Shown here one piece after another: positions 8,695 to 54,321 of a DNA stretch of 64,000 nt. The stretch is taken from the NCBI RefSeq assembly GCF_027594145.1, contig NZ_JAQFFK010000001.1, positions 124,001 through 188,000 on the forward strand. The letters run 5' to 3'. A model generated the notes under the pieces. The model saw only the letters and a program-made list of their open reading frames with translations. It was not told the origin of the DNA and ran no database searches. The translations under genes were made by a program, and so were the position numbers. Origin of the DNA: Methanococcoides alaskense. GTDB lineage: Archaea; Halobacteriota; Methanosarcinia; Methanosarcinales; Methanosarcinaceae. Every line of letters starts with the position of its first letter. Positions within the stretch are counted from its first letter, which is position 1.

Positions 8695-9773
8695 ATGTCG
8701 GAGAAGGCTTTTACGACCTTCTCATTCTGTTCTTGTGTTCCAATTGTCACACGTATGAGTGATAGGCCTGCATGTGCAAAGGATGTGCAGTCACGTACAA
8801 TGATTCCCTTTTTGAGCAATTCGTTAGTAACATCGCGTGCTTTGTGTGGTGCTACATCGACAAGTACGAAGTTAGCCTGTGTATCGTAGACCTTGAAAGG
8901 CAATTTTTCCTGAAGGAACTTCTTTCCTTTAACTGCAAGTTCGATACTTTTATTTAGATGTTCGGTATCTGAGAGGGCAGCTATTCCTGCGGCCATTGCA
9001 GCCGTACTGACATTGAAGGGGGTTGCTATCTTCATGTACTCTTCTCTGAGCCACTCCGGCATGATGCCGTATCCCATTCTTATACCTGCAAGACCGAATG
9101 CCTTTGAAAATGTCCTGCCCACAATGATGTTATCATGTTGGGTCACAAGATGTGCAACATTCTTCTCGGCAAATTCCACATATGCCTCATCCACGAAAAC
9201 AAGTGCATCGGTAGCTGTTGCGATCTTCAGTATGTCTTCTTCAGGAATGACATTTCCTGTAGGGTTGTTCGGGGAACACAGGAAGATCATCTTCGTGTTC
9301 GGGGTGAGGGCCGCCAGTAATTTATCCACATTGATCGAAAAGTCTTTTTCACGCTGGACATATACCGTAGTTGCACCGTTGGCACGTGCAGCTATCTCAT
9401 AGTAGGAGAAGGTCGGGGTAGTGATCACTACTTCGTCACCGTTAGTTATGACAAGCCTTGCCATTCCGTCCAGCAATCCATCCATCCCGGGACCGGATGC
9501 AACAATATTGGCTGCAGGTATATCTGTATACTCAGATATCGCATCCACAAGTTCGCGTGCATCTGCTGAGGGGTAGATACTGATCCCCTGTGCATTCTCT
9601 ATGAGTGCTTCGACAGCTTTTGGTGAAGGTCCGAGGGGATTCTCGTTCGACCCGAGCTTGATGACCGAGGATGGCTCAAGTCCGTAGGTCTTCACTATAT
9701 CCTCGATGGACTTACCGGGAACATATTTGGCAATGGATCCTATCTCATCCTTTATCAGTTCATATCTGGGCAA
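8691..9773 (-). CDS. hisC: Histidinol-phosphate aminotransferase
   Basis: PLP enzyme that makes histidinol phosphate in histidine synthesis. The 360 residues show the class I/II aminotransferase fold: [12 protein letters not shown] near 40, [10 protein letters not shown] near 165, VDEAYVEF near 195, and the PLP lysine K224 in [16 protein letters not shown]. The predicted start is a TTG at 9773 ([10 protein letters not shown]), inside the 3' end of argD, giving a 14-bp overlap. Pairing with argD suggests co-transcription of two aminotransferases for amino-acid synthesis. A related aromatic or other aminotransferase activity cannot be excluded. Confidence 0.9.
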
Positions 9774-10932
9774 TGATCTCGACCACCTTGTCTATCTGTT
9801 CCTTTGTTATTATGAGTGGAGGTGCGATGCGTATGACCTTCTCGGAAGTGCAGTTCAAAAGAATGCCATTGTCCCTTGCAAGGTCTACGATGTCTGCACA
9901 AGCCCTGTTAATTTCGACACCTATCATAAGACCGCGTCCACGAACTTCGATAATGCTGTCGTTATCAAGGGAATTCAGCTCGTTCATGAAGTATTGTCCC
10001 ATCTCTGCCGAGCGTTCCACCAGCTTCTCATCCCTTATCGCATCGATGGATGCCAGAGCTGCGGCACAAGCAAGGGGTCCTCCGCCGAAAGTTGCAGCAT
10101 GCTGGCTCTTTTCAAATGAAATTCCATCGCGTGCCACAATGGCGCCCATTGGGAATCCGCCACCTATGGCCTTCGCCATGGTCATGATGTCCGGTTCGAC
10201 CTTTGAATGATCCTTGCAGAACCATTTACCTGTCCTTCCAAAACCTGTCTGCACTTCATCGAATATCAGGAGCATCTCGTTCTCATCACATATCTCGCGA
10301 ACTTCACTCAGGTATTCATCTGAAGGCACATTTATGCCACCTTCTCCCTGTATGGGCTCTACGATGACGGCAGCGGTATCTTCAGTAATTGTATCCCTTA
10401 TGGCCTGTGCATCGTTGTAGGGTACGAATCTCTCTCCCTGTATTAGTGGTTCGAAAGGTGTCCTGTAAATAGATTTGTATGTGACTGTCAGTGAACCCAT
10501 GGTCCTCCCATGGAAGGAGTTCTCAGCAGCGATGAATTCCTTCTTGCCGGTGGCTACTCTTGCCAGTTTCATTGCAGCTTCCACGGCTTCGGTTCCGGAA
10601 TTGCAGAAAAATGCACGCCCCATGCCTGAAATGTTCACAAGTTCTTCGGCAAAGTTCGCCTGGACTTCTGTGTAATAGATATTGGACGTGTGTATGAGCT
10701 TGCCTGCCTGTTTGCTAATGGCTTCGACCACTTTCGGATGGCAGTGTCCAACATTGTTCACAGCGATGCCGGCGACACAGTCGATGTATTCCCTGCCCTC
10801 AATATCACGGACTATTGAACCCTGTCCGCTTTCAAGTGCTAATGGTTGGCGAGTGTATGTCTGCATTACATACTTTGAATCTTTCTCAACGATTGAATTG
10901 TAATCTTTTGATAGAGTTGTCTCTTTGGTCAT
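9760..10932 (-). CDS. argD: Acetylornithine aminotransferase
   Basis: PLP-dependent class III aminotransferase of arginine synthesis, 390 residues. Seen: [20 protein letters not shown] near the N-terminus, [29 protein letters not shown], and the PLP lysine K254 in [14 protein letters not shown]. The start ATG at 10932 has GAGG upstream. It overlaps hisC downstream. Class III enzymes are similar to each other, so ornithine or lysine-pathway substrates are also possible. Confidence 0.9.
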
Positions 10933-10959
10933 AAAAAGCCTCTAAATAGTTAGTAATGG

Positions 10960-11790
10960 TCAAATATCAAGCGTCATAAGTTCATTTTCATTGAGGATCT
11001 CATCTTCTTCCCTTATGAAGATAATTCCTCCGGGTGCTCTCATGACACCGTCAACACGTGCACTTTCGTGTATCTTTATGGAATTGGCATTTATCTCACC
11101 AAGAACATGTGTTCCCTTGTTGATGTATACATCACCTCTGGATACAATGTTCCCGTGTATGATATTATCTTCCCCGAGGTCCACTGTATTAAGGGTGCGG
11201 ATACTTCCATAAAGCGTAGTATCATTTCCCATCTCGAGTGTGGAAGCACGGATATTGCCGACAAGGCGACAATTGTTGCCTATGGATGCTGTGGCTGGTA
11301 CTCTGATGGAATCGATGGATATCTTAGAACCGTTCGGGACGATCATGGCGAGATTTCCTATGGTCTCTACTTCTTCATCGAAAAGCTCATCAAGCGCCTT
11401 TTCGACCTCTTCATCCTTGCCCATGCGTAAAAGTTCTGTCAGATAAAGGAACAGGTATGCTATAACAGGGATCGGGTTCCTTACAACGATCCAGCCCTTT
11501 GCTTCGAAACCGCTGCTGATCTTCACATCATTTCCAATGTCAAGGTCGCCTTTTACAACGAGCCTTCCATCAATGGTGACGAACTCACCGATGTAAGCGT
11601 TCTCTTTTGTCTTGACGTTCCCACCGATGTGTGACCAGATATCTATCCTTACATCCGAGCTGGCAACTATGTCACCTGAAACCTCTACCCTTTCACCGAG
11701 TATGGCAGCTTTGGCGATAATTCCATAGCGTATGTCGGAATGGTTACCCACTACGATATCACCATCAAGAACGATGTTCCGTTCTTCCAT
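10960..11790 (-). CDS. Polymer-forming bactofilin-like beta-helix protein
   Basis: A 276-residue protein made largely of short hexapeptide-like beta-helix turns, such as GDIVVGNHSDIRYGIIAKAA and GNIVSRGDVYINKGTH. The two beta-helix halves are split by a hydrophobic/charged insert at about 105-150 (PVIAYLFLYLTELL, then acidic EEVEKALDELFDEE). This matches archaeal proteins annotated as polymer-forming or bactofilin-like, or as acyltransferase-like. No acyltransferase catalytic histidine pattern was recognised, so a structural role is favoured. It is 27 bp upstream of argD on the same strand. Confidence 0.7.
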   Translation of the reverse strand: MEERNIVLDGDIVVGNHSDIRYGIIAKAAILGERVEVSGDIVASSDVRIDIWSHIGGNVKTKENAYIGEFVTIDGRLVVKGDLDIGNDVKISSGFEAKGWIVVRNPIPVIAYLFLYLTELLRMGKDEEVEKALDELFDEEVETIGNLAMIVPNGSKISIDSIRVPATASIGNNCRLVGNIRASTLEMGNDTTLYGSIRTLNTVDLGEDNIIHGNIVSRGDVYINKGTHVLGEINANSIKIHESARVDGVMRAPGGIIFIREEDEILNENELMTLDI

Positions 11791-39906: not shown

Positions 39907-40200
39907 ATGGAACGGACAATGCAGCAGGTGGTGTCAATAGGGGAGGCTATTTCCCATCCATTGCGCCTTAAGCTATTGTGTATGCTTTCTGAGCGTGAAT
40001 GGTATATCTATGAGCTTGCCAAAGAACTGGGCGTTTCGCGTCAGGTTCTCTATCTTCACTTGAAACGTCTTGAAAAAGCCGGTTTTGTTGAAAGTGATCT
40101 TCGACTTGAGGCTGATGATATGAGGGCAAAGAAGTTCTTCAGGTTGAAAGAGTTCAATGTTTCATTGGGTATCAATGACCTAAGGCCATTCTTCGAATGA
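39907..40200 (+). CDS. ArsR-family transcriptional regulator
   Basis: A 97-residue winged-helix protein: SIGEAISHPLRLKLLCMLSE, recognition helix region LAKELGVSRQVLYLHLKRLE, then KAGFVESDLRLEADDMRAKK and FFRLKEFNV. No CxxC metal site is seen, so a different signal is sensed. It ends a tight run of small envelope-protein genes and is a candidate for autoregulation through the repeat at 38668 or the palindrome at 40289. Confidence 0.82.
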   Translation: MERTMQQVVSIGEAISHPLRLKLLCMLSEREWYIYELAKELGVSRQVLYLHLKRLEKAGFVESDLRLEADDMRAKKFFRLKEFNVSLGINDLRPFFE

Positions 40201-40551: not shown

Positions 40552-41226
40552 ATGAACATGGTAATTCTCACAGTCGTAGGTATCCTAATGGCTATCTTGC
40601 TCTTTGGTGTAAAAACCGGGATTGGTTGTGGTTTCTCTAACCGTAGTCTGAAAAGCATTCTTCTATTGGCTTCCAGTTATCTTATTTTGTCCATCGTTCT
40701 GGGTAGTCTGATAGGATATGTGGACCAGTCGAACCTTGATGTTATTACGAGCATGGGTATGTCTCTCCACGTCCTGGTTGCATTGTTACTGATCGGGGCA
40801 GGCATCTATACGCAGAAACAATGGAATTGCGGGTGTGATGTTTCCCATCGGACATTCCTTGTTATCTCGCTCCCCTGTCCTGTTTGCCTGACAGCATTGT
40901 TCATATCCTGTATGCTGCTGGCATCATACATCGATAGGAGTGGCACTCTGATAGGGTTGCTTGTGGGTGTCGTTTTTTTCATTTCTGTCGTGTCAACATC
41001 ACTGCTTTGCAAGAAACTTGGCAAGACCCCTGAAACTCTCGGTAACATCATGATGATACTTGGTATCTACTATCTAATGGGTGCCATTATTGTTCCTGCT
41101 TACATCAAAACTAAACAGATGAACATACCTCAATATACTGCACCACCTATGGATATTCTTCCCTTTGTGGTATTCGCGGTCTTCATTGCCGGGGGATTTG
41201 TTCTTAATAATATACGGAGTAATTGA
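40552..41226 (+). CDS. DUF2162 membrane protein, putative transporter
   Basis: A 224-residue membrane protein with about seven helices. It has conserved cysteines: GIGCGF near 26, WNCGCDVSHRTF near 92, and PCPVCLTALFISC near 108, a set that could bind a metal or a disulfide. It belongs to the uncharacterised DUF2162 family of methanogens. Its stop overlaps the ExbB-like gene start by 4 bp, and DUF2149 and the CobN-like chelatase follow, so it is probably the membrane permease or partner of that system. Confidence 0.78.
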   Translation: MNMVILTVVGILMAILLFGVKTGIGCGFSNRSLKSILLLASSYLILSIVLGSLIGYVDQSNLDVITSMGMSLHVLVALLLIGAGIYTQKQWNCGCDVSHRTFLVISLPCPVCLTALFISCMLLASYIDRSGTLIGLLVGVVFFISVVSTSLLCKKLGKTPETLGNIMMILGIYYLMGAIIVPAYIKTKQMNIPQYTAPPMDILPFVVFAVFIAGGFVLNNIRSN

Positions 41227-41852
41227 AAATGGCTATTGATTCATTTTTGTTCCAGCTGATGTACACTGCATCAGCTGCGTTGTTATATCCAGTGGTCATA
41301 CTGCTGCTGTTAGCAGTCGCAGCATCTCTTGGATTGATCGGTGAGTTCATTTCGGAATATGCAAAACGTCACCGCAATGTACGGGAACTTGAAAAAGTTG
41401 GTCGAAGTGTGCAGGAAAGCGTGAAAGCCTCTTCGCTTGACAATGCGGCAGAAAAACTGCACAGTCTTGACCAGAACCAATTGGTAACCTCATTTGCAAA
41501 AGATGCTGGTGAATATCTGAAACAGAACTCTATCTCCTCTATTGACTGGCTTTCAGAAGAGTATGAGGTAAGGATGACAAAGCGTCTGGAGCAGACCAAG
41601 ATACTATCCACGGTTGCTCCAATGCTCGGTCTGATGGGCACCCTAATTCCACTGGGTCCTGCGCTCATTGGTCTTGCACAGGGTGATATCCTACAGCTTG
41701 CTAACAACCTGATGATCGCTTTTGCAACAACAGTTCTCGGACTGTTCGCAGGTGTCGTAGGGTATGTCCTGACACTTATCAGAAAGCGGTGGTACTGGCA
41801 GGATATGGCAGATATAGATTATCTTATGGATTCCATGGGGAGTGACCAATGA
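41223..41852 (+). CDS. MotA/TolQ/ExbB-type proton channel protein
   Basis: A 209-residue three-helix channel protein. TM1 is near 10-40, then a cytoplasmic helical region (RHRNVRELEKVGRSVQESVK), then the conserved block TKILSTVAPMLGLMGTLIPL (about 124-143) and LMIAFATTVLGLFAGVVGYV (about 163-182), as in TolQ/ExbB. These proteins form proton channels that power work across the envelope. It overlaps both neighbours by 4 bp. The next gene (DUF2149) takes the ExbD/TolR place in the order. Confidence 0.87.
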   Translation: MKMAIDSFLFQLMYTASAALLYPVVILLLLAVAASLGLIGEFISEYAKRHRNVRELEKVGRSVQESVKASSLDNAAEKLHSLDQNQLVTSFAKDAGEYLKQNSISSIDWLSEEYEVRMTKRLEQTKILSTVAPMLGLMGTLIPLGPALIGLAQGDILQLANNLMIAFATTVLGLFAGVVGYVLTLIRKRWYWQDMADIDYLMDSMGSDQ

Positions 41853-42208
41853 GGAGAAAACGCTATCATAGGCCCGGCATCCTCTATGAGGAAGATGACC
41901 AGAACCCTCTGACAGGGGTTGCGAATCTATTCGATATTGCCATGGTGTTCTCAGTAGCACTTATGATAGCTCTTGTCATGTCTTTCCAGCTTCCTGAGCT
42001 TCTAAGTCCTACGGCAGATATAACCATTGTTAAAAATCCGGGTCAGCCCGATATGAAGATCATTGTCAAGGAAGGTCAGAATATAGAAGTACTGAATATG
42101 ACCGATCAGATCGGCGGTGGTACCGGTGAGGCTCTTGGTACTGCTTATCAGCTGGGTGATGGAAGGGTCGTCTATGTTCCGGATTCAGGTAATGAGACCG
42201 GCTCATGA
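41849..42208 (+). CDS. DUF2149 protein, candidate ExbD/TolR-like partner
   Basis: A 119-residue protein with one N-terminal transmembrane helix (about 25-48, NLFDIAMVFSVALMIALVMS) and an extracytoplasmic domain of about 70 residues (DMKIIVKEGQNIEVLNMTDQ). The aspartate at the start of the helix (LFDIAMV) sits where ExbD/TolR has its proton-carrying Asp. With the ExbB-like gene directly before it, this suggests an archaeal two-protein channel. The DUF2149 assignment is by recall of the family; the ExbD analogy is inference. Confidence 0.75.
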   Translation: MRRKRYHRPGILYEEDDQNPLTGVANLFDIAMVFSVALMIALVMSFQLPELLSPTADITIVKNPGQPDMKIIVKEGQNIEVLNMTDQIGGGTGEALGTAYQLGDGRVVYVPDSGNETGS

Positions 42209-42315
42209 TCCATTTTTGGTCTTTATTGGCTCTTTATGATGTGAAATCGAATTTGAACATTATTAGAAAAAATTTGAATTAAGAAGTGAATTGAATGTGG
42301 TAAAATTAGTAGTTT

Positions 42316-42358
42316 GAAACATCCCGATAAGCCGCCAAGCAAATTTCCGGGATGTTTC
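42316..42358 (+). promoter_or_regulatory. Leader hairpin of the CobN-like gene
   Basis: Perfect 11-bp arms GAAACATCCCG (42316-42326) and CGGGATGTTTC (42348-42358) enclose a 21-nt loop. The hairpin lies 24 nt before the ATG at 42382 and its GGGTGG ribosome-binding site, and there is no T-run. It could regulate translation or mRNA stability, or partially terminate transcription between DUF2149 and the chelatase. It does not resemble the cobalamin riboswitch. Confidence 0.5.
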
Positions 42359-42381
42359 AGGCACATTATCGGGTGGATAAT

Positions 42382-45300
42382 ATGCAAAATATAAAACATC
42401 AATTATTACTATTAAGTGTTTTGATTTTACTGGCTCTTTCTCCAGTGGTATCGGCAGATGAGAACCAAACGAATGTAATGTTTGTGCTGGGCACGGATGT
42501 GAATGAAGCTTCGCTAATAACTATGTCTTCGCACCCCAACATCACATCCAACCTGACCGTAACGATCTTCAACAGTACTGAAACCGTTCCGGCAGGATTC
42601 AATTTCTCGAATTATTCGGTCATATTCCTCGAATCACAGTCAGAGGGTGCTGTTAACGACTGGCAGGCGAACTTAACATCTAACCTGACCATCGCCAAAG
42701 ACAATGGCTGTAGCGTGATAGGATATAACCTTTCATCCAATATCACCTTGCCAAACGTTGACCTGTATACAAATGACTACACTGATGTCGAACGGTACTG
42801 GATACAGGGCGGTGACACCAACATGGAATCCATGCTCAAGTTCATGGGGCAGGAGTTCTGCAATGCATGGGCGAACGAGACCATTCCAGAACCTGTTATT
42901 CTGCAGTCCAAACAAAAGATCACCTATATTATCAACTCTGATACCAGCAGGTATTATCTTTCTCAGGTCCTGTCAGAGAGAAGTGTGATCACAGACAATT
43001 TCAATGTTACTGTGATGAGTGGTACTGAAGCTGCTAACCTCAGCGATGTTTCTGACCAGGACGTTATCATGCTCTACATGATAGGTGCCAACGAACTTCC
43101 CGAGTTCAAGGACGAGCTTCTCGCTGCAAAAGCCAGTGGCTCACAGATCGGACTTTTTGGTATGAGCGATGTCTATGGAATAGGAACCATCGATATGGAG
43201 AATGCGCCACATAGCGCAATGAAGGATTACCTCTATAACAGTGGATACACGAATATGGAGAACTGGGTCCGCTGTATCGGAGCGACCCTCGAGGATGTGT
43301 ACGTTGAATACTCGGCTCCAGCCGCACCATCGATCCCTGACCATGGTATTTATCACCCTGGTGCATTCCCTAGGGTATTCGAGAACAGTACCGAATATCT
43401 TGAGTGGTATGTGAGCAATGGGTACAATGCATCTGCACCAACTATTGGAGTGATCGCAAGTTACAATATCGAGAAAACAACCCTTCTTCATACCACCGAT
43501 GATGCAATAATCAACAATCTGGAATCAAAAGGATATAATGTTATTTTCTCAACATACAAAGTATGCACCAATGATGTTGACTATTTCACACAGAATGGAA
43601 CTGTACTGGTAGATTCCATCATCTCATTAAAGGGCTTCAGTCTCAATTACGGAGACCAGGAAAAAGGTGTTGAGTATCTCGAGGGGTATGGTGTTCCTGT
43701 AATAAAGGGTGTGCTTGATTATTACCAAGGTCCAGACCAGTTCAATGAAAGTTTACATGGTATGGACCCAAGTTCAATTCCTTCCCATGTCACTCAACCT
43801 GAGATCGATGGGTTGATTGATTTCATATGGGTTGCTGGTAGGGTTACAGATCCAATCTCTCAGCAGAAATACTATGAACCCCAGATGCAACAGTTAGACT
43901 GGATGTGTGACCGTGCGATCTCCTGGGCAGAACTTGGTCATGTTAGCAATGCTAACAAGAAAGTGACTATTATTTACTATAATCATGAGGGTGGCAAGAA
44001 CAACATAGGTGCCAGTTACCTTGATGTTGGATCCAGTTTTACATTACTGCTTGAGCAGATGCGAACAGCAGGTTATGATGTAGGAAATGGCACTATTCCA
44101 AATGGCAGTGAGTTCATCGATAGATTCATCGAGAGCAGGAACGTTGGTTCATGGGCACCAGGTGAACTTGAGAAGGTCGTCAACTCAGGTAATGTCACGC
44201 TGGTTCCAGTGGACGAATATCTCGCATGGTACAACACCCTGCCGCAGTCCGTACAGGATGAGATCGAAGCACGATGGGGCGAAGCACCAGGCAACATTAT
44301 GGTGTACGAGAATAAGTTTGTGATCCCTACCGTACAGCTTGGTAATATCAACTTCATACCACAGCCGACCAGAGGCGACCTGTCAGATGAATCGGTAATG
44401 TACCACGATAAATCATTACCTCCTACTCATCAGTATCTCGCGACATACTTCTGGATCAACAATGTCTATGATGCTGATGCTATGATCCACTTCGGTACTC
44501 ATGGTACTCAAGAATGGTTGCCCGGGAAAGAGGTTGGACTGTGGAAGTATGACTATCCATCCATCATGGTGGCTGATACACCTGTAGTATATCCATACAT
44601 CATGGATAATGTAGGGGAAGGTACTCAGGCTAAACGTCGAGGCAATGCAGTGATCATAGATCACATGATCCCTCCAATAACGGATGCAGAATTATATGGT
44701 GAACTGGCTACTATGCATGATACGATGCATAGTTATGAGGATTCAGCAAGTTCCAATGATACTGCAATGATGGCACTTTATCGAAACAGTACTATCCAAC
44801 TTTACGAAAATCTCTCGATGGAAAATGATCTGAATGTGACGGCTGGTGAACTAAGGGCAATGCCAGAGGTCGATTTTGCGAACTTCGCTTCGGACACTCT
44901 CCACGATTATCTTCATCAACTACAAGGTACGCTCATGCCCCTTGGACTTCACACATTTGGTGTTGCACCACAGGACGAAAAACTCGTCACCATGGTCAAA
45001 TCAATGCTTCGCAGCGCTTTCATTGATCATATCGTTGATGTAATTCCCCATGTAGGAGATGAGGAGGATTGGACTGATACTGCTGAATCTTATGCAACCG
45101 AGCTTTTGAATGCTACATTGCTCAATGGCACGAACGTTTCAACTGCTCAGTTAAATGTGCTGAACCTCACCGACGCGAACATCACGTCAGATCTGAATCT
45201 GGCACTGAATTATTCCAGTGCTCTGGGGAATACCTCCCGTGAGATCACTCAGACGTTGTATGCTCTCAATGGAGGATATATTGAACCTGGGTCTGGAAAT

Positions 45301-46980
45301 GATCCTATACGAAATCCGGATGCTTTGCCAACAGGCAGGAACTTCTACAGTTTCGACCAGAGGAAGTTCCCTGATGTGGAAACAACAACTATGGGCGCGA
45401 TCCTTGCAAACCAGCTGGTGCAGCAGTACCATGATACACATAACAACACCTATCCAAACAAGGTAGCTTATGTTCTCTGGTCTACGGAAACGATGCGTCA
45501 TCGTGGACTCATGGAAGCTCAGATATATTCGCTTCTTGGAGTAAATCCAACAAGGAGTTATGGTCGGATAACAGGCTTTGAAGTCCTTCCAAGGAATGAC
45601 ACCAACCCAAGGATAGATGTGGTCATCACACCTTCAGGACTGTACAGGGACACGTTCCCGTATCAGCTTGAGCTGATCGATAAGGCGGTTCGAACAGTGG
45701 CAGCACTCAATGAGTCCAATGAAACGAACTATGTCAGATACAATTCCCTGATAATGGAAGATGCTCTTCTGGCCAGTGGATACAACAACACTACAGCACA
45801 GGCGCTCTCACAGTCCAGGATCTTCACTGAATCACCGGGTTCATACGGTACAGGGCTTCCGGGAGCGGTGACCGCGAGTGAGACATGGGACAGTGATGAT
45901 GAACTTGCAGATCTTTACATGTCACGCATGTCCAACATCTATGGGCAGGATATATGGGGTGAGAACTATGAAGACGTTTTCAGGATGAACTTAATGGATG
46001 TTGACGCTGCCATACACAGTGATACGACGAACTTGTATGGGCTCATCGATAACGATGATTTCTACCAGTACCTTGGTGGACTTGGGCTTGCGGTGAGGTC
46101 ATTGACAGGAGATAATCCGGAGATGTATATTGCAGATCTGAAAAATGTGGACAATCCCCAGATCATTACCCTGAACGAGGCATTCAGGACGGAGTTGCGT
46201 GCAAGATATTTCAATCCTAAATGGATAGAGGGTATGATGGAATACGATTACGCTGGTGCTAGGGAGTTCATGAAGTTCACCGAGCATATGTGGGGCTGGG
46301 ATGCGACGACCCCTGGATTGGTGAAGGATTCTGACTGGAATGAGATATACGACATCTACGTCGACGACAAGTACGATCTTGGTATGGAGGAATTCTTCAA
46401 TGACAACCCATATCAATATCAGTCCATGACTGCTCGCATGCTTGAAACCGCAAGGAAAGACTACTGGGATGCCTCGGATGAGACACTTCAGAACTTGGTG
46501 AAGGAGTACGCAGAATCTGTGGTCGAGAACGGTGTAACATGCTGTCACCATACCTGTGGTAATCCGTTGCTTGATAGTTATATACAGGGCGTGATGTCCA
46601 TACCAGGTGTTGTTTCACAGGAGACCATAGACGAGTACAACAAACTGATGCAGGAAGCCACACAGAGGGAAACTTCATCATCAGCTTCCAGTACTCGCAG
46701 CAGCAGTAGCGGAACTACTGCATCTGCTTCGATTGTCAATACCACTAGCACAAGCAGTGTTGATGGAGGGTATGGAACTACCACCGAACAGGCAACAGAG
46801 TCTTCTCAGCAAAACACACCAGACAACTACGTTGAAGGGTATGAAATGACAAAAGAATCCACAACAAGTGATTCATCCTCGTCGTCTACATCCTTCTCCG
46901 GTGCTGATATTTTAGGCAGCGTATTGGTCATATTGGCCGTTTCTGTCATATTTATCGGTTTCAGGAGACGAGGGGTCTAA
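42382..46980 (+). CDS. Secreted, membrane-anchored CobN/BchH-like chelatase
   Basis: A 1532-residue relative of the cobaltochelatase/Mg-chelatase large subunit, which normally inserts Co or Mg into tetrapyrroles in the cytoplasm. The core is present: AMIHFGTHGTQEWLPGKEVG (H703, H707, E711), NVGEGTQAKRRGNAVIIDHM, and a C-terminal CCHHTCGNPLLD metal motif (C1387-C1392). Unusually it has a signal peptide (LLLLSVLILLALSPVVSA), many N-x-S/T sites, a Ser/Thr-rich linker (about 1420-1500) and a C-terminal helix ending GFRRRGV. It is therefore predicted to face outside. It follows an ExbB-like channel, not the usual CobST/ChlID ATPases. The ATG at 42382 has GGGTGG upstream. Confidence 0.88.
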   Translation: MQNIKHQLLLLSVLILLALSPVVSADENQTNVMFVLGTDVNEASLITMSSHPNITSNLTVTIFNSTETVPAGFNFSNYSVIFLESQSEGAVNDWQANLTSNLTIAKDNGCSVIGYNLSSNITLPNVDLYTNDYTDVERYWIQGGDTNMESMLKFMGQEFCNAWANETIPEPVILQSKQKITYIINSDTSRYYLSQVLSERSVITDNFNVTVMSGTEAANLSDVSDQDVIMLYMIGANELPEFKDELLAAKASGSQIGLFGMSDVYGIGTIDMENAPHSAMKDYLYNSGYTNMENWVRCIGATLEDVYVEYSAPAAPSIPDHGIYHPGAFPRVFENSTEYLEWYVSNGYNASAPTIGVIASYNIEKTTLLHTTDDAIINNLESKGYNVIFSTYKVCTNDVDYFTQNGTVLVDSIISLKGFSLNYGDQEKGVEYLEGYGVPVIKGVLDYYQGPDQFNESLHGMDPSSIPSHVTQPEIDGLIDFIWVAGRVTDPISQQKYYEPQMQQLDWMCDRAISWAELGHVSNANKKVTIIYYNHEGGKNNIGASYLDVGSSFTLLLEQMRTAGYDVGNGTIPNGSEFIDRFIESRNVGSWAPGELEKVVNSGNVTLVPVDEYLAWYNTLPQSVQDEIEARWGEAPGNIMVYENKFVIPTVQLGNINFIPQPTRGDLSDESVMYHDKSLPPTHQYLATYFWINNVYDADAMIHFGTHGTQEWLPGKEVGLWKYDYPSIMVADTPVVYPYIMDNVGEGTQAKRRGNAVIIDHMIPPITDAELYGELATMHDTMHSYEDSASSNDTAMMALYRNSTIQLYENLSMENDLNVTAGELRAMPEVDFANFASDTLHDYLHQLQGTLMPLGLHTFGVAPQDEKLVTMVKSMLRSAFIDHIVDVIPHVGDEEDWTDTAESYATELLNATLLNGTNVSTAQLNVLNLTDANITSDLNLALNYSSALGNTSREITQTLYALNGGYIEPGSGNDPIRNPDALPTGRNFYSFDQRKFPDVETTTMGAILANQLVQQYHDTHNNTYPNKVAYVLWSTETMRHRGLMEAQIYSLLGVNPTRSYGRITGFEVLPRNDTNPRIDVVITPSGLYRDTFPYQLELIDKAVRTVAALNESNETNYVRYNSLIMEDALLASGYNNTTAQALSQSRIFTESPGSYGTGLPGAVTASETWDSDDELADLYMSRMSNIYGQDIWGENYEDVFRMNLMDVDAAIHSDTTNLYGLIDNDDFYQYLGGLGLAVRSLTGDNPEMYIADLKNVDNPQIITLNEAFRTELRARYFNPKWIEGMMEYDYAGAREFMKFTEHMWGWDATTPGLVKDSDWNEIYDIYVDDKYDLGMEEFFNDNPYQYQSMTARMLETARKDYWDASDETLQNLVKEYAESVVENGVTCCHHTCGNPLLDSYIQGVMSIPGVVSQETIDEYNKLMQEATQRETSSSASSTRSSSSGTTASASIVNTTSTSSVDGGYGTTTEQATESSQQNTPDNYVEGYEMTKESTTSDSSSSSTSFSGADILGSVLVILAVSVIFIGFRRRGV

Positions 46981-47170: not shown

Positions 47171-48340
47171 ATGATAACAATGCTAATAGATCCCATCTGT
47201 AAGTCCCAAGTATCTAAAGATAGTGAATATGTCACTGAATATGGTGGCAAAACATACTATTTCTGTTCTGGCAAGTGCAAAAGCAAGTTCGACAGGCTTG
47301 AAAAAAGTGTTATACGCCTCAAGCGCACTATCGGAGACCAGGAGAAGATATCCTTTGGCAGACTGAACAAGGAGATAATCAAGACTGGGATCTGCACTTT
47401 GTGTGGTGCATGCGTTGCTTCCTGTGAATGTGTTACTTTTGTAGACAACAAGCCAAAACTTGTGGGTAAATGCACTGCATGTGGGGTTTGCTATAATCAA
47501 TGTCCTCGGACCATCACCAAGGAGGAGGACCTCATTGGAAAGATAAGGTATGGCTATGCTGCAAGATCCACTATTCCCGGATTGAAAGGGCAGGATGGCG
47601 GCGTTGTAACTTCAATGCTGGCATACGCACTTGATGAGGGATTGCTGGATTGTGCCATCGTTACGAAAAGGTCCGAGGATGAGCCCTGGAAGGCTGAGCC
47701 TGTGATAGTCAGGACCTCTGCTGAAGTGCTTGAGTCTGCGGGGAGCATCTATACCCATAGCATGACCTTGGAGCCTTTGATGAGCGCCATAAAGCAGGAG
47801 ATGGGGAGCATTGGATTTGTTGGCCCAAGCTGTAATATAGACGCGGTACACAAGATGCAGACAAGTTCATATGGTTTTCTTCATCTTTTCTTAAGGGCAA
47901 GGGTGCTTAAGTTTGGTCTGTTCTGTATGGATAGTTTTGAGCACGATGGAATTAAAGAATTCGTTGAGTCAAAAGGGCTGGACCTTGCTGATATCCATTC
48001 AATGAAGATCAGAAAAGGGCTCTTTGAGTTTGGTACTTCTGAAGGTATGAAAAGCTACGATCTTTCAGAATTGGACCAATACCGTTGCAGTTCGTGTAAG
48101 TTCTGTACCGATATGGCTGCTGAGAACACTGATATTTCATTTGGTGGCGTGGGAACTCCGGTCGGCTGGACTACAGTGCTCGCAAGGACGTCGATCGGGT
48201 ATGAGATCTTCAATGAGGCGATCGATAGTGGCTATCTGGAAGCCCGTCCTCTGGAAAAAGCTGAAATGGATCGAATGGTCAACCTTGCAAAGATGAAAAA
48301 GGTACAGATGTACACGTTGAACCGCAGGCAAAATAGCTGA
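47171..48340 (+). CDS. YHS domain fused to F420-dehydrogenase beta-subunit (FrhB) family protein
   Basis: A 389-residue protein. Residues 1-45 form a YHS/TRASH-like metal-binding domain (IDPICKSQVS, GKTYYFCSGKCKSKF). Residues about 70-115 hold two 4Fe-4S motifs (CTLCGACVASCECV, CTACGVCYNQCP). The rest is the FrhB N- and C-terminal domains (GQDGGVVTSMLAYALDEGLL, GFVGPSCNIDAVHKMQ, CSSCKFCTDMAAENTDISFG). FrhB proteins bind F420 and FAD and pass electrons to partner enzymes. The partner is unknown here. An alternative ATG lies at 47180. It follows the CobN system after a terminator and about 135 bp of AT-rich DNA. Confidence 0.85.
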   Translation: MITMLIDPICKSQVSKDSEYVTEYGGKTYYFCSGKCKSKFDRLEKSVIRLKRTIGDQEKISFGRLNKEIIKTGICTLCGACVASCECVTFVDNKPKLVGKCTACGVCYNQCPRTITKEEDLIGKIRYGYAARSTIPGLKGQDGGVVTSMLAYALDEGLLDCAIVTKRSEDEPWKAEPVIVRTSAEVLESAGSIYTHSMTLEPLMSAIKQEMGSIGFVGPSCNIDAVHKMQTSSYGFLHLFLRARVLKFGLFCMDSFEHDGIKEFVESKGLDLADIHSMKIRKGLFEFGTSEGMKSYDLSELDQYRCSSCKFCTDMAAENTDISFGGVGTPVGWTTVLARTSIGYEIFNEAIDSGYLEARPLEKAEMDRMVNLAKMKKVQMYTLNRRQNS

Positions 48341-52207: not shown

Positions 52208-53398
52208 TCATTTCTTCAGAATCCCGTTCCAGGCGTTCTCCTCAGCACGCCTTATCACTTCCTTCAATGGAAGCCCGCATTCCTGACTTATTCGTTTACA
52301 ATCTTCGAATTCGGCTGAAATATGGAGAACTTCATCAGAAGTGTCATGTGCTATCTTGACAGCTACCTGAAAGGTCTGCTTCCCTATCGTTATATTCACA
52401 TTCTCCATCTTGCGTTCTGCAATAAAACGGTGCTTTGTTGGGAGGATACGAACTCCGAGGGTCCCAGTCTGTCTTATCAGCTCCCTTGCAATCCTTTCGC
52501 TGTCCTCGGGATGTGCGATGACATGTATGATGTGGCCAGTGCGTCCTTTTTTCATGGTGGCAGGTGTTATGGTGACATCTTTGGCACCGGTTTCCATGAG
52601 TGCCTCAAAAAGATTACCAAGCACTTCTCCGGTAACATCATCCACATTCGTCTCAAGGACTTCCATGTGGTCACGTGAAAGGACTCCTTTGGTCTCCATT
52701 AGCATTGTACGAAGAACGTTGGGCATTGCAGTCTCCGCATCCCCTGCACCATATCCGGTGGTCATTATCTTTCCAGGGGGGAGTTGGTCGCTGGGGTCTG
52801 CAAAATAAGTAAGTAAAGCAGCTCCCGTTGGGGTGAGCAGTTCCCTATCGCCGCTGCTATGTATCTCCAGACCACTTTCGCTGAGTATCTCGGTGGTCGC
52901 AGGAGCTGGCACAGGCAATGTACCATGTGCACTTCTAACACTTCCTCCTCCGACATTGATAGGGGTGCACAATATATTCTCTACCTTCATCTTGTGAATA
53001 GCATAGCAAGAACCTATGACATCTGCAAGTGCATCATCCTGACCTACCTCGTGGAAATGTAGTTGTTCAAGAGGCATGCCGTGAACCTTTGCCTCTGCTT
53101 CTCCAATGATCCTGAATACTGCAATGGCACTTTTTTCCACTTCTTCGGGAAGTTTCGCATCCTTTATTATGTCTATAAGTTCCTCGAATGACCGTATCCT
53201 TGCCCTGTCCTTTGTATGGATATGAACATCTGTGGCACGTATGCCGCATTTAGTGACATCTTCAACAGCTACGGAAACATCCACGGAGGCTTCGATAATT
53301 TCTGTTATCTCTTTCCTGTCTGCCCCAAGGTCGATAAGTCCTGCAAGTATCATATCTCCGGAGGCACCTGAAAATGGTTCAAATACAAGTGTTCTCAT
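52208..53398 (-). CDS. larC: LarC nickel-insertion protein
   Basis: Inserts nickel into the pincer cofactor (pyridinium-3,5-bisthiocarboxylic acid mononucleotide). The 396 residues show VFEPFSGASGDMILAGLIDL at the start, LHFHEVGQDDALADVIGSCY, GGGSVRSAHGTLPVPAPATT and GAGDAETAMPNVLR. The ATG at 53398 follows GAGGCGGGA. It is a single continuous frame, whereas in Lactobacillus plantarum larC is made by ribosomal frameshifting. It starts 11 bp after larB. LarE (sulfur transfer) and a LarA-type racemase are not in this window. Confidence 0.93.
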   Translation of the reverse strand: MRTLVFEPFSGASGDMILAGLIDLGADRKEITEIIEASVDVSVAVEDVTKCGIRATDVHIHTKDRARIRSFEELIDIIKDAKLPEEVEKSAIAVFRIIGEAEAKVHGMPLEQLHFHEVGQDDALADVIGSCYAIHKMKVENILCTPINVGGGSVRSAHGTLPVPAPATTEILSESGLEIHSSGDRELLTPTGAALLTYFADPSDQLPPGKIMTTGYGAGDAETAMPNVLRTMLMETKGVLSRDHMEVLETNVDDVTGEVLGNLFEALMETGAKDVTITPATMKKGRTGHIIHVIAHPEDSERIARELIRQTGTLGVRILPTKHRFIAERKMENVNITIGKQTFQVAVKIAHDTSDEVLHISAEFEDCKRISQECGLPLKEVIRRAEENAWNGILKK

Positions 53399-53409
53399 AG
53401 TATCCCGCC

Positions 53410-54189
53410 TCAAAACTCTTTCTTTCTCGCTTCTGCAACACTATTTGCTATCCTTGCGGCAAAAGCACCTGCAACGAATCCAGCATCGATGTTGACTACT
53501 GATAATATGGAACATGACTGCAACATCGAAAGGAGTGCAGCTTCTCCTTTGGCACCGGCACCGTATCCGATCGATACGGGTAGCCCTATCACAGGTACAT
53601 CTATAAGGCTGGATACTACCGTTGGTAGAGTTCCCTCTCTTCCGGCTGCCACAACTATAGCGTCAGGTCTGTTCTCTTCAAAGACACTCATCTCGGATAT
53701 CAGCCTCTGGAACCCTGCCACGCCCACATCGTATATCTGAATTGTACTGCACCCCATCTCTGAGGCAGTCATGCGTGCTTCCTCTGCAACATCGATATCA
53801 GCAGTACCGGCTGTAATGATGGCCACAGTGCCTCCTGTCCTTGGTACAGGGGTGCTGTCATGCACTACCGCTGTTCTTGAATGCATGTCCCATTCAATAT
53901 TCTCCGGCTTGAATGCATTCCTAATGGCTGATGCATGTTCTTCATTAATGCGTGTAATAAGTGTTCTTCCCACAGCTTCATTGTGTGCTTTCACTATCTC
54001 TACTATGTCTTCAGGCTCCTTTCCTTCTGCAAGGATAGCTTCCATGTACCCTGTACGGTATTTGCGAAACGTGTCCAGTTTTGCGATATCGGAGACCGGA
54101 ACGTATCCCATGGAACGTATCTGGCTTTCTGCGTTCACAAGGTCTGTACTTCCTTCTTTCACCTGTCGCAATATATTCTTCAATTCCAT
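53410..54189 (-). CDS. larB: LarB, nickel-pincer cofactor precursor synthase
   Basis: Carboxylates and hydrolyses nicotinic acid adenine dinucleotide to pyridinium-3,5-biscarboxylic acid mononucleotide. The 259 residues have an N-terminal helical region (ELKNILRQVKEGSTDLVNAE) and a C-terminal PurE-like domain (GTVAIITAGTADIDVAEEAR, VAAGREGTLPTVVSSLIDVP, PVSIGYGAGAKGEAALLSML). The ATG at 54189 has AAAAGGA upstream and is preferred to a TTG at 54207. It forms an operon with larC. Confidence 0.92.
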   Translation of the reverse strand: MELKNILRQVKEGSTDLVNAESQIRSMGYVPVSDIAKLDTFRKYRTGYMEAILAEGKEPEDIVEIVKAHNEAVGRTLITRINEEHASAIRNAFKPENIEWDMHSRTAVVHDSTPVPRTGGTVAIITAGTADIDVAEEARMTASEMGCSTIQIYDVGVAGFQRLISEMSVFEENRPDAIVVAAGREGTLPTVVSSLIDVPVIGLPVSIGYGAGAKGEAALLSMLQSCSILSVVNIDAGFVAGAFAARIANSVAEARKKEF

Positions 54190-54321
54190 GCTCGATCCTT
54201 TTACCAATGGACTGGACTATATAAATAAAAGTCCCTTTTAGGCAAAGACTAATAACGATAGCTTGCTTTAAATGTAGTCTGATAGCGTGGAAATCAGGTA
54301 CTAATCACAGGTTTAGAGATC

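Follow-up and report, generated by a model that had tools for sequence, protein, structure and literature searches.

The class I chelatases CobNST and ChlHID/BchHID are cytoplasmic biosynthetic enzymes driven by adenosine triphosphate (ATP) through AAA+ partner subunits. A different member of the same family, HmuS, is encoded in hmuYRSTUV operons and has been characterized as a membrane-bound heme de-chelatase, which strips iron from heme and needs His538 (PMC12583661). Exported CobN-like proteins had earlier been named BtuS (PMC6460266, citing Rodionov et al. 2003), and two papers state that archaea have no complete hmu operon, Methanosarcina barkeri being without the entire operon (PMC10846266). 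Here we compare with these systems a locus of the archaeon Methanococcoides alaskense, in which four genes on one strand, at positions 40552-46980 of a stretch of 64,000 nucleotides (the window), encode a DUF2162 membrane protein (T), an ExbB-like channel protein (U), a DUF2149 protein (V) and a CobN-like protein predicted to be secreted (S). A preliminary description of this DNA had named these families at these positions, and both the open reading frames and Pfam bear this out, all four matches (DUF2162, MotA_ExbB, DUF2149 and CobN-Mg_chel) exceeding the curated cut-offs. Its remark that no described mechanism was known for this set is not supported, given the homologues of S, U and V in Hmu, the BtuS proteins and a plasmid-borne set of the same four families in Trichlorobacter (Geobacter) lovleyi.

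The closest described counterpart is HmuSTUV of Bacteroidota, exemplified by HmuS of Bacteroides thetaiotaomicron (PDB 9D26). In each of the 12 Bacteroidota loci that a search with HmuS returned, archaeal profiles recovered all three of S, U and V, with E values of 3e-45 to 2.5e-57 for U and 2.2e-34 to 7e-46 for V; by these comparisons, the three are homologous to HmuS, HmuU and HmuV, and their genes are adjacent in both systems. Like HmuS, S appears to be membrane-anchored outside the cytoplasm, carries the histidine of an HFG(T/A)HG motif and has no AAA+ partner at its locus. On the other hand, the archaeal gene order is TUVS rather than STUV, and T is not detectably related to HmuT: as an HmuT orthologue it was rejected, there being no hidden Markov model match at 0.01 and an hhalign probability of 11.6. 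Neither HmuY nor HmuR is evident among the open reading frames of the locus, in which no dedicated search for them was made. What is new here is thus a S-U-V module conserved in archaea with a different T and without a complete hmu operon. The open-licence literature yielded no recognizable description of this set in archaea, although it may be described elsewhere; as excerpted, the accounts of BtuS deal with S alone and do not mention archaeal U, V or T partners (PMC6460266, PMC10846266).

The set is matched more fully in T. lovleyi, whose plasmid pSZ77 carries all four families in identical order; the excerpted genome paper connects the plasmid CobN with cobalamin metabolism, and the cluster with transport. 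Unlike M. alaskense, T. lovleyi is a bacterium with an outer membrane, and TonB receptors and a canonical ExbB/ExbD/TonB system flank the set, DUF2162-ExbB-DUF2149-CobN being directly followed by ExbB, ExbD and TonB. Because T. lovleyi keeps both systems, and because archaeal U/V adjoins S, the U/V pair would have a job apart from that of the TonB energizer. A looser parallel, compared by description only, is PA1922-PA1925 of Pseudomonas aeruginosa, where a TonB receptor, a CobN-like protein, a channel-family gene annotated as ExbD and a DUF2149 gene share one operon; it differs in being zinc-regulated (Zur regulon), and no DUF2162 is named in the excerpted description. In Runella the T position is held by a protein annotated as urease accessory, within a hydrogenase-maturation (hyp) cluster, and in Azospirillum a NikR gene lies near the set. 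Taken with the Zur operon, these cases suggest a permease in the T position and a metal that varies from system to system.

Across 148 genomes of the phylum, DUF2149 was found in 48, DUF2162 in 41 (39 above the cut-off) and CobN-family proteins in 89; Methanosarcina acetivorans, used as a control, gave matches to the S, T and V families. Of the 64 V places, 44 have T no more than 3.5 kb away and at least 34 have S no more than 12 kb away; V stands beside 43 of the 45 T places, and the pairing of T with V exceeds chance. Among 41 loci around V or T (that of the window and those we number L037-L076; genomes carry G numbers), T, U, V and S are all together in 28, so that the co-occurrence which the preliminary description had proposed to look for across archaea is there. 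S, U and V also stand together in Bacteroidota, Pseudomonadota and Desulfuromonadia. A 260-residue stretch of an S protein is matched in 79 of 90 genomes of the family, which does not imply secretion for every match. By our own count in 15 genomes, most of them picked for many S, 27 V places compare with 65 S frames of at least about 1,400 residues (one split, one with internal stops), and because S frames outnumber V places, one U/V motor seems to serve several S proteins. The 5.8-Mb genome G213 of the family has twelve CobN-family matches, of which ten are long frames (one with internal stops), and three V genes.

S almost certainly belongs to the BtuS/HmuS class, whose members are CobN-like, exported and set apart from the biosynthetic CobN and ChlH. 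Compared with solved structures, it scored 461.4 bits against HmuS (PDB 9d26), 449.1 against Mycobacterium tuberculosis CobN (7c6o) and 397.2 against ChlH (4zhj), and its 357-residue C-terminal part favored HmuS more clearly (168 versus 113 bits). A maximum-likelihood tree of 59 proteins placed 32 archaeal S, seven bacterial S and seven HmuS on one side of a branch with an SH-aLRT value of 100, and 13 cytoplasmic-type CobN/BchH on the other; this tree excludes two active-site stretches, was made by a quick method with SH-aLRT as its only support measure, and includes sequences of uneven letter make-up and two long rows. Six of the bacterial S come from U/V operons and one from Cupriavidus, with no U/V seen beside it; the second S of L049 (cut at the end of its stretch) and the S of L059 (masked) were left out. 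S shares the family of the class I chelatases over its full length, as well as a CobN-like Asp/Gln site, but lies across a supported branch from them; it neither joins the CobN group in the tree nor has an AAA+ pair at its locus. The CobN proteins of L072 and L073, which the profile first called S, are without signal or anchor and group with the cytoplasmic side, and were not counted; in these two loci, U/V stands beside a Peripla_BP_2 protein, radical-SAM genes and this cytoplasmic-type CobN, which has an LDHYYEF site. The length of S ranges from 1,322 to 2,075 residues in the tree set and up to 2,622 in the wider frame count.

The signal peptide, Ser/Thr-rich stalk and C-terminal helix with basic tail that had been described for S agree with its hydropathy, from which signals and membrane segments were solely assigned. 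The best 19-residue Kyte-Doolittle windows of S reach 2.29 at the N terminus and 2.51 at the C terminus, versus 0.19 to 1.64 and -0.06 to 0.63, respectively, in six cytoplasmic CobN/BchH references, and the stretch preceding the C-terminal helix is 34% Ser/Thr. Over the tree, the C-terminal segment splits the 46 secreted rows (1.26 to 3.25) from the 13 others (at most 0.63) with no exception, and the N-terminal segment is at or below the highest reference in four of the 46 (L055, L087, L094 and L097). S is thus very probably a surface protein anchored by its C terminus, as had been proposed, and a cytoplasmic S is contradicted by the hydropathy prediction. Its N-terminal part contains two head-like halves that resemble each other (blastp E=1e-8 with composition correction off; profile comparison probability 95.2, E=2.8e-8).

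U matches the MotA_ExbB family, as do ExbB, TolQ and MotA; its motif GLMGTLIP.GPA and residues T140, T169 and T170 are invariant in 25 of 25 sequences (archaea and six Bacteroidota), at least two of these threonines align to conserved ExbB positions, and the U profile matched one ExbB with a probability of 68.5 (E=4.6e-5). Unlike ExbB and TolQ themselves, U is well under the respective equivalog cut-offs (20.2 of 206.2 and 19.1 of 221 bits). V may correspond to the partners ExbD, TolR and MotB: it has one predicted membrane helix (residues 20-46) with an invariant Asp, which had been noted from the sequence and is Asp29, at the start of the helix; N26, L27, F28 and D29 are identical in 37 of 37 aligned V sequences, and this NLFD recalls the FID of ExbD. 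The outer part of V is beta-rich in a weak structural model (mean predicted local distance difference test, pLDDT, 61.3). T has seven long predicted helices (AlphaFold2 mean pLDDT 79.5) and a PCPxC motif (P108, C109, P110, C112) invariant in 27 of 27 sequences. As a relative of a solved transporter T was rejected, Foldseek giving no PDB match at E<=0.001 and a profile search one chance-like match. The channel and its Asp-helix partner are conserved with the chelatase, as the preliminary description had anticipated, and the catalytic core of the latter is mostly conserved.

The partners that S might be expected to use as a class I chelatase seem dispensable in some genomes. Of 89 CobN-bearing genomes, 77 have a match to an AAA+ chelatase subunit at E<=1e-69 and 12 do not, and eight of these 12 carry S beside V and T (G002, G012, G022, G085, G090, G003, G080 and G131; the S of G131 is not included in the residue counts below). 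Since all eight are 99% complete and their best AAA+ match is 8.8e-17, S does not seem to need an AAA+ partner in them. PF01078 alone was uninformative as a marker of such subunits, many other AAA+ frames matching it, with sizes that suggest Lon and MCM. The claim that AAA+ partners are absent was right for the locus and wrong for the genome, in which ChlI-like and ChlD-like frames lie side by side on another contig (G000:C3:308031-310561), with no CobN in the surrounding 20 kb. In L105 (G000:C3:299001-319000), where it is at 8932-11675, this pair is close to a PP-loop gene resembling larE by appearance only.

We read the four genes as an archaeal counterpart of that half of the Bacteroidota hmu system which lies at the inner membrane, an ion-gradient-driven device handling a metallo-tetrapyrrole at the cell surface, the ligand being likelier a corrinoid than heme, and we give this reading an even chance. 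Its topology is predicted; the drive by an ion gradient, a coupling between U/V and S, the removal of metal, a corrinoid as ligand, what T does and the direction of the process we infer. S would be an enzyme or receptor outside the membrane, whose head domains catch the ligand and whose cleft, with His538 on one side and the Asp replacing His1209 on the other, would hold the metal ring. The channel U and its single-helix Asp partner V would form a stator-like motor whose action on S passes through the Ser/Thr-rich stalk. As ATP is absent outside the cell, this motor would replace the AAA+ ATPase by pushing the ligand, the metal once freed or the emptied ring through S; T would carry the product, a metal ion or a ring, over the membrane or relay electrons through its PCPxC cysteines. 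That U/V acts on S is probable, and U/V driving S would be the simplest reading; whether S removes a metal rather than only binding the ligand we see as evenly balanced. A role with a tetrapyrrole or its metal, proposed earlier, is supported by the sequence as likely; for the F430-like ligand that had also been named, the evidence speaks neither for nor against.

The choice of ligand rests on the active site (residue numbers follow HmuS of PMC12583661). S has both HFGTHGTQEW and CCHHTC, as had been reported, and of 32 secreted S from archaea, 29 retain His538 in the alignment, that of the window among them. At positions 1209 and 1212, S of the window has Asp and Gln; position 1209 is Asp in 25, His in three (L039, L048 and L050), Glu in one and Met in three of the 32. 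CobN references from B12 operons have Asp1209 in five of five and Gln1212 in four of five, whereas all seven HmuS have His/Glu within a motif LSLDHxxEFMGG that S of the window does not match, and the single BchH reference has His/Asp. Over the 59 rows of the tree, 1209 is His in 16, Asp in 37 and another residue in six, with at least four changes among His and Asp rows, and the state of this residue is suggestive of a ligand code. The HmuS heme ligands Met79 and His254 are replaced by Ile and Gly in S of the window, where the alignment is less sure, and are found in two and none, respectively, of the 32 archaeal S; the Met-rich insertion of HmuS (domain IV; 257 residues, 25 Met) is missing, the corresponding part being of 105 residues with three Met. 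Two head domains and the Ser/Thr-rich stalk are further differences from HmuS. Because these defining features fail, S of the window was rejected as HmuS itself and assigned only to the wider BtuS/HmuS class; in our reading it may act on a ligand related to but other than heme, and corrinoid or cobalt rather than heme or iron is for this protein a matter of equal odds. An S near a CooC-like gene is of the His type (FDH) in L144 and L146-L148 of the genus and of the Asp type in the genome of the window (L077).

Some gene neighborhoods also touch on cobalt. For example, cbiM, cbiQ, cbiA and cbiD lie near the set in L059 (G025), where we also read CbiO and CbiN from context, a 97-residue frame there having no Pfam match, and CbiM and CbiQ lie beside S in L069 (G093). 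In L065 (G051) a methyltransferase gene starts 1 bp after S and is followed by corrin methylases, one with a CbiG part, and in L070 (G113) one starts 7 bp after S, again followed by corrin methylases; we read both as CbiT, Pfam naming the L070 gene a methyltransferase and no more. The cobalamin plasmid of T. lovleyi is a further tight case. CbiD in G113 is a loose case, about 16 kb away. A cobalt link argued from proximity alone was set aside as near chance, and we put weight only on the tight same-strand cases.

Several observations weigh against this reading. CbiM occurs in two of the 41 loci (L059 and L069) and within 10 kb of at least two of the 64 V places, for which a rough estimate by chance is about 1.2 of 64; 29 loci from the family of the window, most of at most 20 kb, gave no match to the cobalt/B12 seed proteins tried, and upstream of T in 18 loci no common DNA motif stood above shuffles. 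The residue code is not universal, since 13 cytoplasmic-type proteins have Asp (six), His (five) or Cys (two) at 1209, and in the protein of L091, encoded within a hydrogenase-maturation cluster, the Asp is not accompanied by Gln. The secreted S of L058, L068 and L071 are without both His538 and the 1209 site, T, U and V still adjoin the first and last of these, and G080, the genome of L071, is among the eight AAA+-free ones; the tetrapyrrole pocket, which had been taken as kept, is so in the window and lost in these three of 32. Profiles showed no homology of V to ExbD, hhalign to one ExbD giving a probability of 0.3 and a PDB profile search showing no ExbD to E=10. Removal of cobalt from a corrin that leaves the ring whole is not known. 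Purified HmuS de-chelates heme with NADH in vitro without ATP or HmuUV (PMC12583661), so the motor may not drive the chemistry, and two BtuS of M. barkeri are up in two iron/sulfur regimes versus a third, which the authors link to iron (PMC10846266).

This response of M. barkeri fits the alternative in which the archaeal set scavenges heme iron like Bacteroides Hmu, S stripping the iron and Fe(II) entering by FeoB or T. HmuS is indeed the sole characterized relative found with U/V partners, the HmuS-like His1209 occurs not only in L039, L048 and L050 but also in the FDH-type S of nine further loci that a search with a His-type S added, and L048 and L050 have a DtxR-type iron repressor and a flavodoxin adjacent (by Pfam for L048, by similarity for L050), which fits iron. 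However, the remaining His-type loci show no DtxR or flavodoxin in the compared stretches, and the Asp/Gln site of the window, its lack of Met79, His254 and the Met-rich insertion, and the results for HmuT, HmuY and HmuR given above make this account a doubtful one for the window. We find it somewhat less plausible still that S is a non-catalytic surface receptor for cobamides or other metal rings, with U/V and T or a BtuCD-type transporter importing these whole, as in TonB systems with many receptors. S is often multicopy and variable in length beside few V genes, the catalytic His is lost in the three S named above, and in L063 a FecCD-type permease lies two genes, and an ATP-binding cassette ATPase one gene, before the gene next to T (a FecCD-type permease is also present in L071); against this, a pure receptor would have no need of the His that the other 29 S keep, and the nearest studied relative is an enzyme.

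That U/V powers other surface proteins and is only loosely a neighbor of S appears improbable. U/V occurs without a nearby S in L075, near a CARDB-rich secreted protein, and in L076, near an S-layer protein, and 13 of the 41 loci are without the full set, some of them at contig ends, but the four genes are together in the other 28 and the S-U-V association recurs in three bacterial groups. The U/V pair of L074, also without S, lies near a secreted protein, and such pairs may power other surface proteins. Finally, an S that inserts metal, or works with the ChlI/ChlD-like pair as an ordinary class I chelatase, is very improbable: the genome of the window, which is 76.6% complete, has the pair and, as far as found, no CobN beyond two secreted S, yet S is predicted outside, the pair is located away from it, the eight AAA+-free genomes have S, and in the anaerobic pathway cobalt is inserted early by CbiX/CbiK-type enzymes.

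The features of the locus are collected in Table 1.

Table 1. Coordinates in the window of the four genes, parts of S and a candidate regulator
Feature	Position	Strand	Match or remark
ArsR-type winged-helix protein, candidate regulator upstream of T	39907..40200	+	PF01022 47.4 bits
T, DUF2162 membrane protein	40552..41226	+	PF09930 223 bits
U, ExbB/TolQ/MotA-type channel protein	41223..41852	+	PF01618 37.9 bits (cut-off 22.9); likely start ATG 41229
V, DUF2149	41849..42208	+	PF09919 118.5 bits
S, CobN-like protein of the BtuS/HmuS class, predicted to be secreted and membrane-anchored	42352..46980	+	PF02514 positions 2-1090 of 1090, 1138.3 bits; likely start ATG 42382
S, two tandem head-like domains, residues ~37-185 and 186-330	42460..43341	+	blastp, profile comparison
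S, HFGTHGTQEW including the residue aligned to HmuS His538	44488..44517	+	
S, LIDNDDFYQYLGGL: CobN-like Asp/Gln at HmuS His1209/Glu1212 positions	46042..46083	+	
S, CCHHTC; matching Cys pair in HmuS (SCSGFVC)	46540..46557	+	
S, Ser/Thr-rich stalk, predicted C-terminal helix, basic tail	46663..46980	+	

The gene calls need some qualification. Of the 4-bp overlaps between the first three genes that had been described, that of U and V is real, whereas that of T and U needs a TTG start, close relatives starting U at an ATG two codons later without overlap; V and S are separated by 143 bp. The open frame of S has 1542 codons, and the 1532 residues reported before result from counting from the Met of codon 11, at which a typical signal peptide starts. 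The ArsR-type protein, which may be tied to the set, has homologues in five of 42 compared loci, beside T in L051, L053 and L062 besides the window and after S in L046. The genome (1,972,843 bases, 6 contigs) has one DUF2149 gene and two CobN-family genes, the second encoding 1731 residues with hydrophobic segments at both termini; T, U and V were not found in the 20 kb around it. At Rfam gathering thresholds the window has three transfer RNAs only, and no cobalamin riboswitch at that level. Directly after S, at 47171-48340, lies a gene that fuses a YHS domain and a ferredoxin-like region to an F420-hydrogenase beta subunit, with homologues in five of 42 compared loci. At 52208-54207 on the minus strand, a LarC-type nickel insertion gene (PF01969, 442.6 bits) adjoins a gene that is larB by appearance only, and the two look like nickel-pincer cofactor genes; a LarC-type homologue is also downstream of the set in L037 and L038.

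Two things would surprise a specialist, an S-U-V module in cells that have no outer membrane and a secreted chelatase with a CobN-type site. Archaea have no TonB-type outer membrane, and because S-U-V is kept in them, this conservation speaks against a view in which HmuU and HmuV work solely for HmuR, the outer-membrane receptor, and offers a simpler cell envelope in which the task of the motor could be probed. More speculatively, and in our view rather unlikely as a whole, class I chelatases may be of two energy types, AAA+-driven in the cytoplasm and ExbB/DUF2149-driven at the surface, one motor serving several S heads that switched repeatedly between porphyrin (His/Glu) and corrin (Asp/Gln) sites, with archaea dismantling or remodeling external cobamides and hemes. 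Chelatase specificity could be tested by a single residue, given the His/Asp difference. Should the ligand prove to be a corrinoid, the set would provide a route, new to us, for the disassembly or remodeling of extracellular cobamides, which would matter in organisms whose methane metabolism depends on corrinoids.

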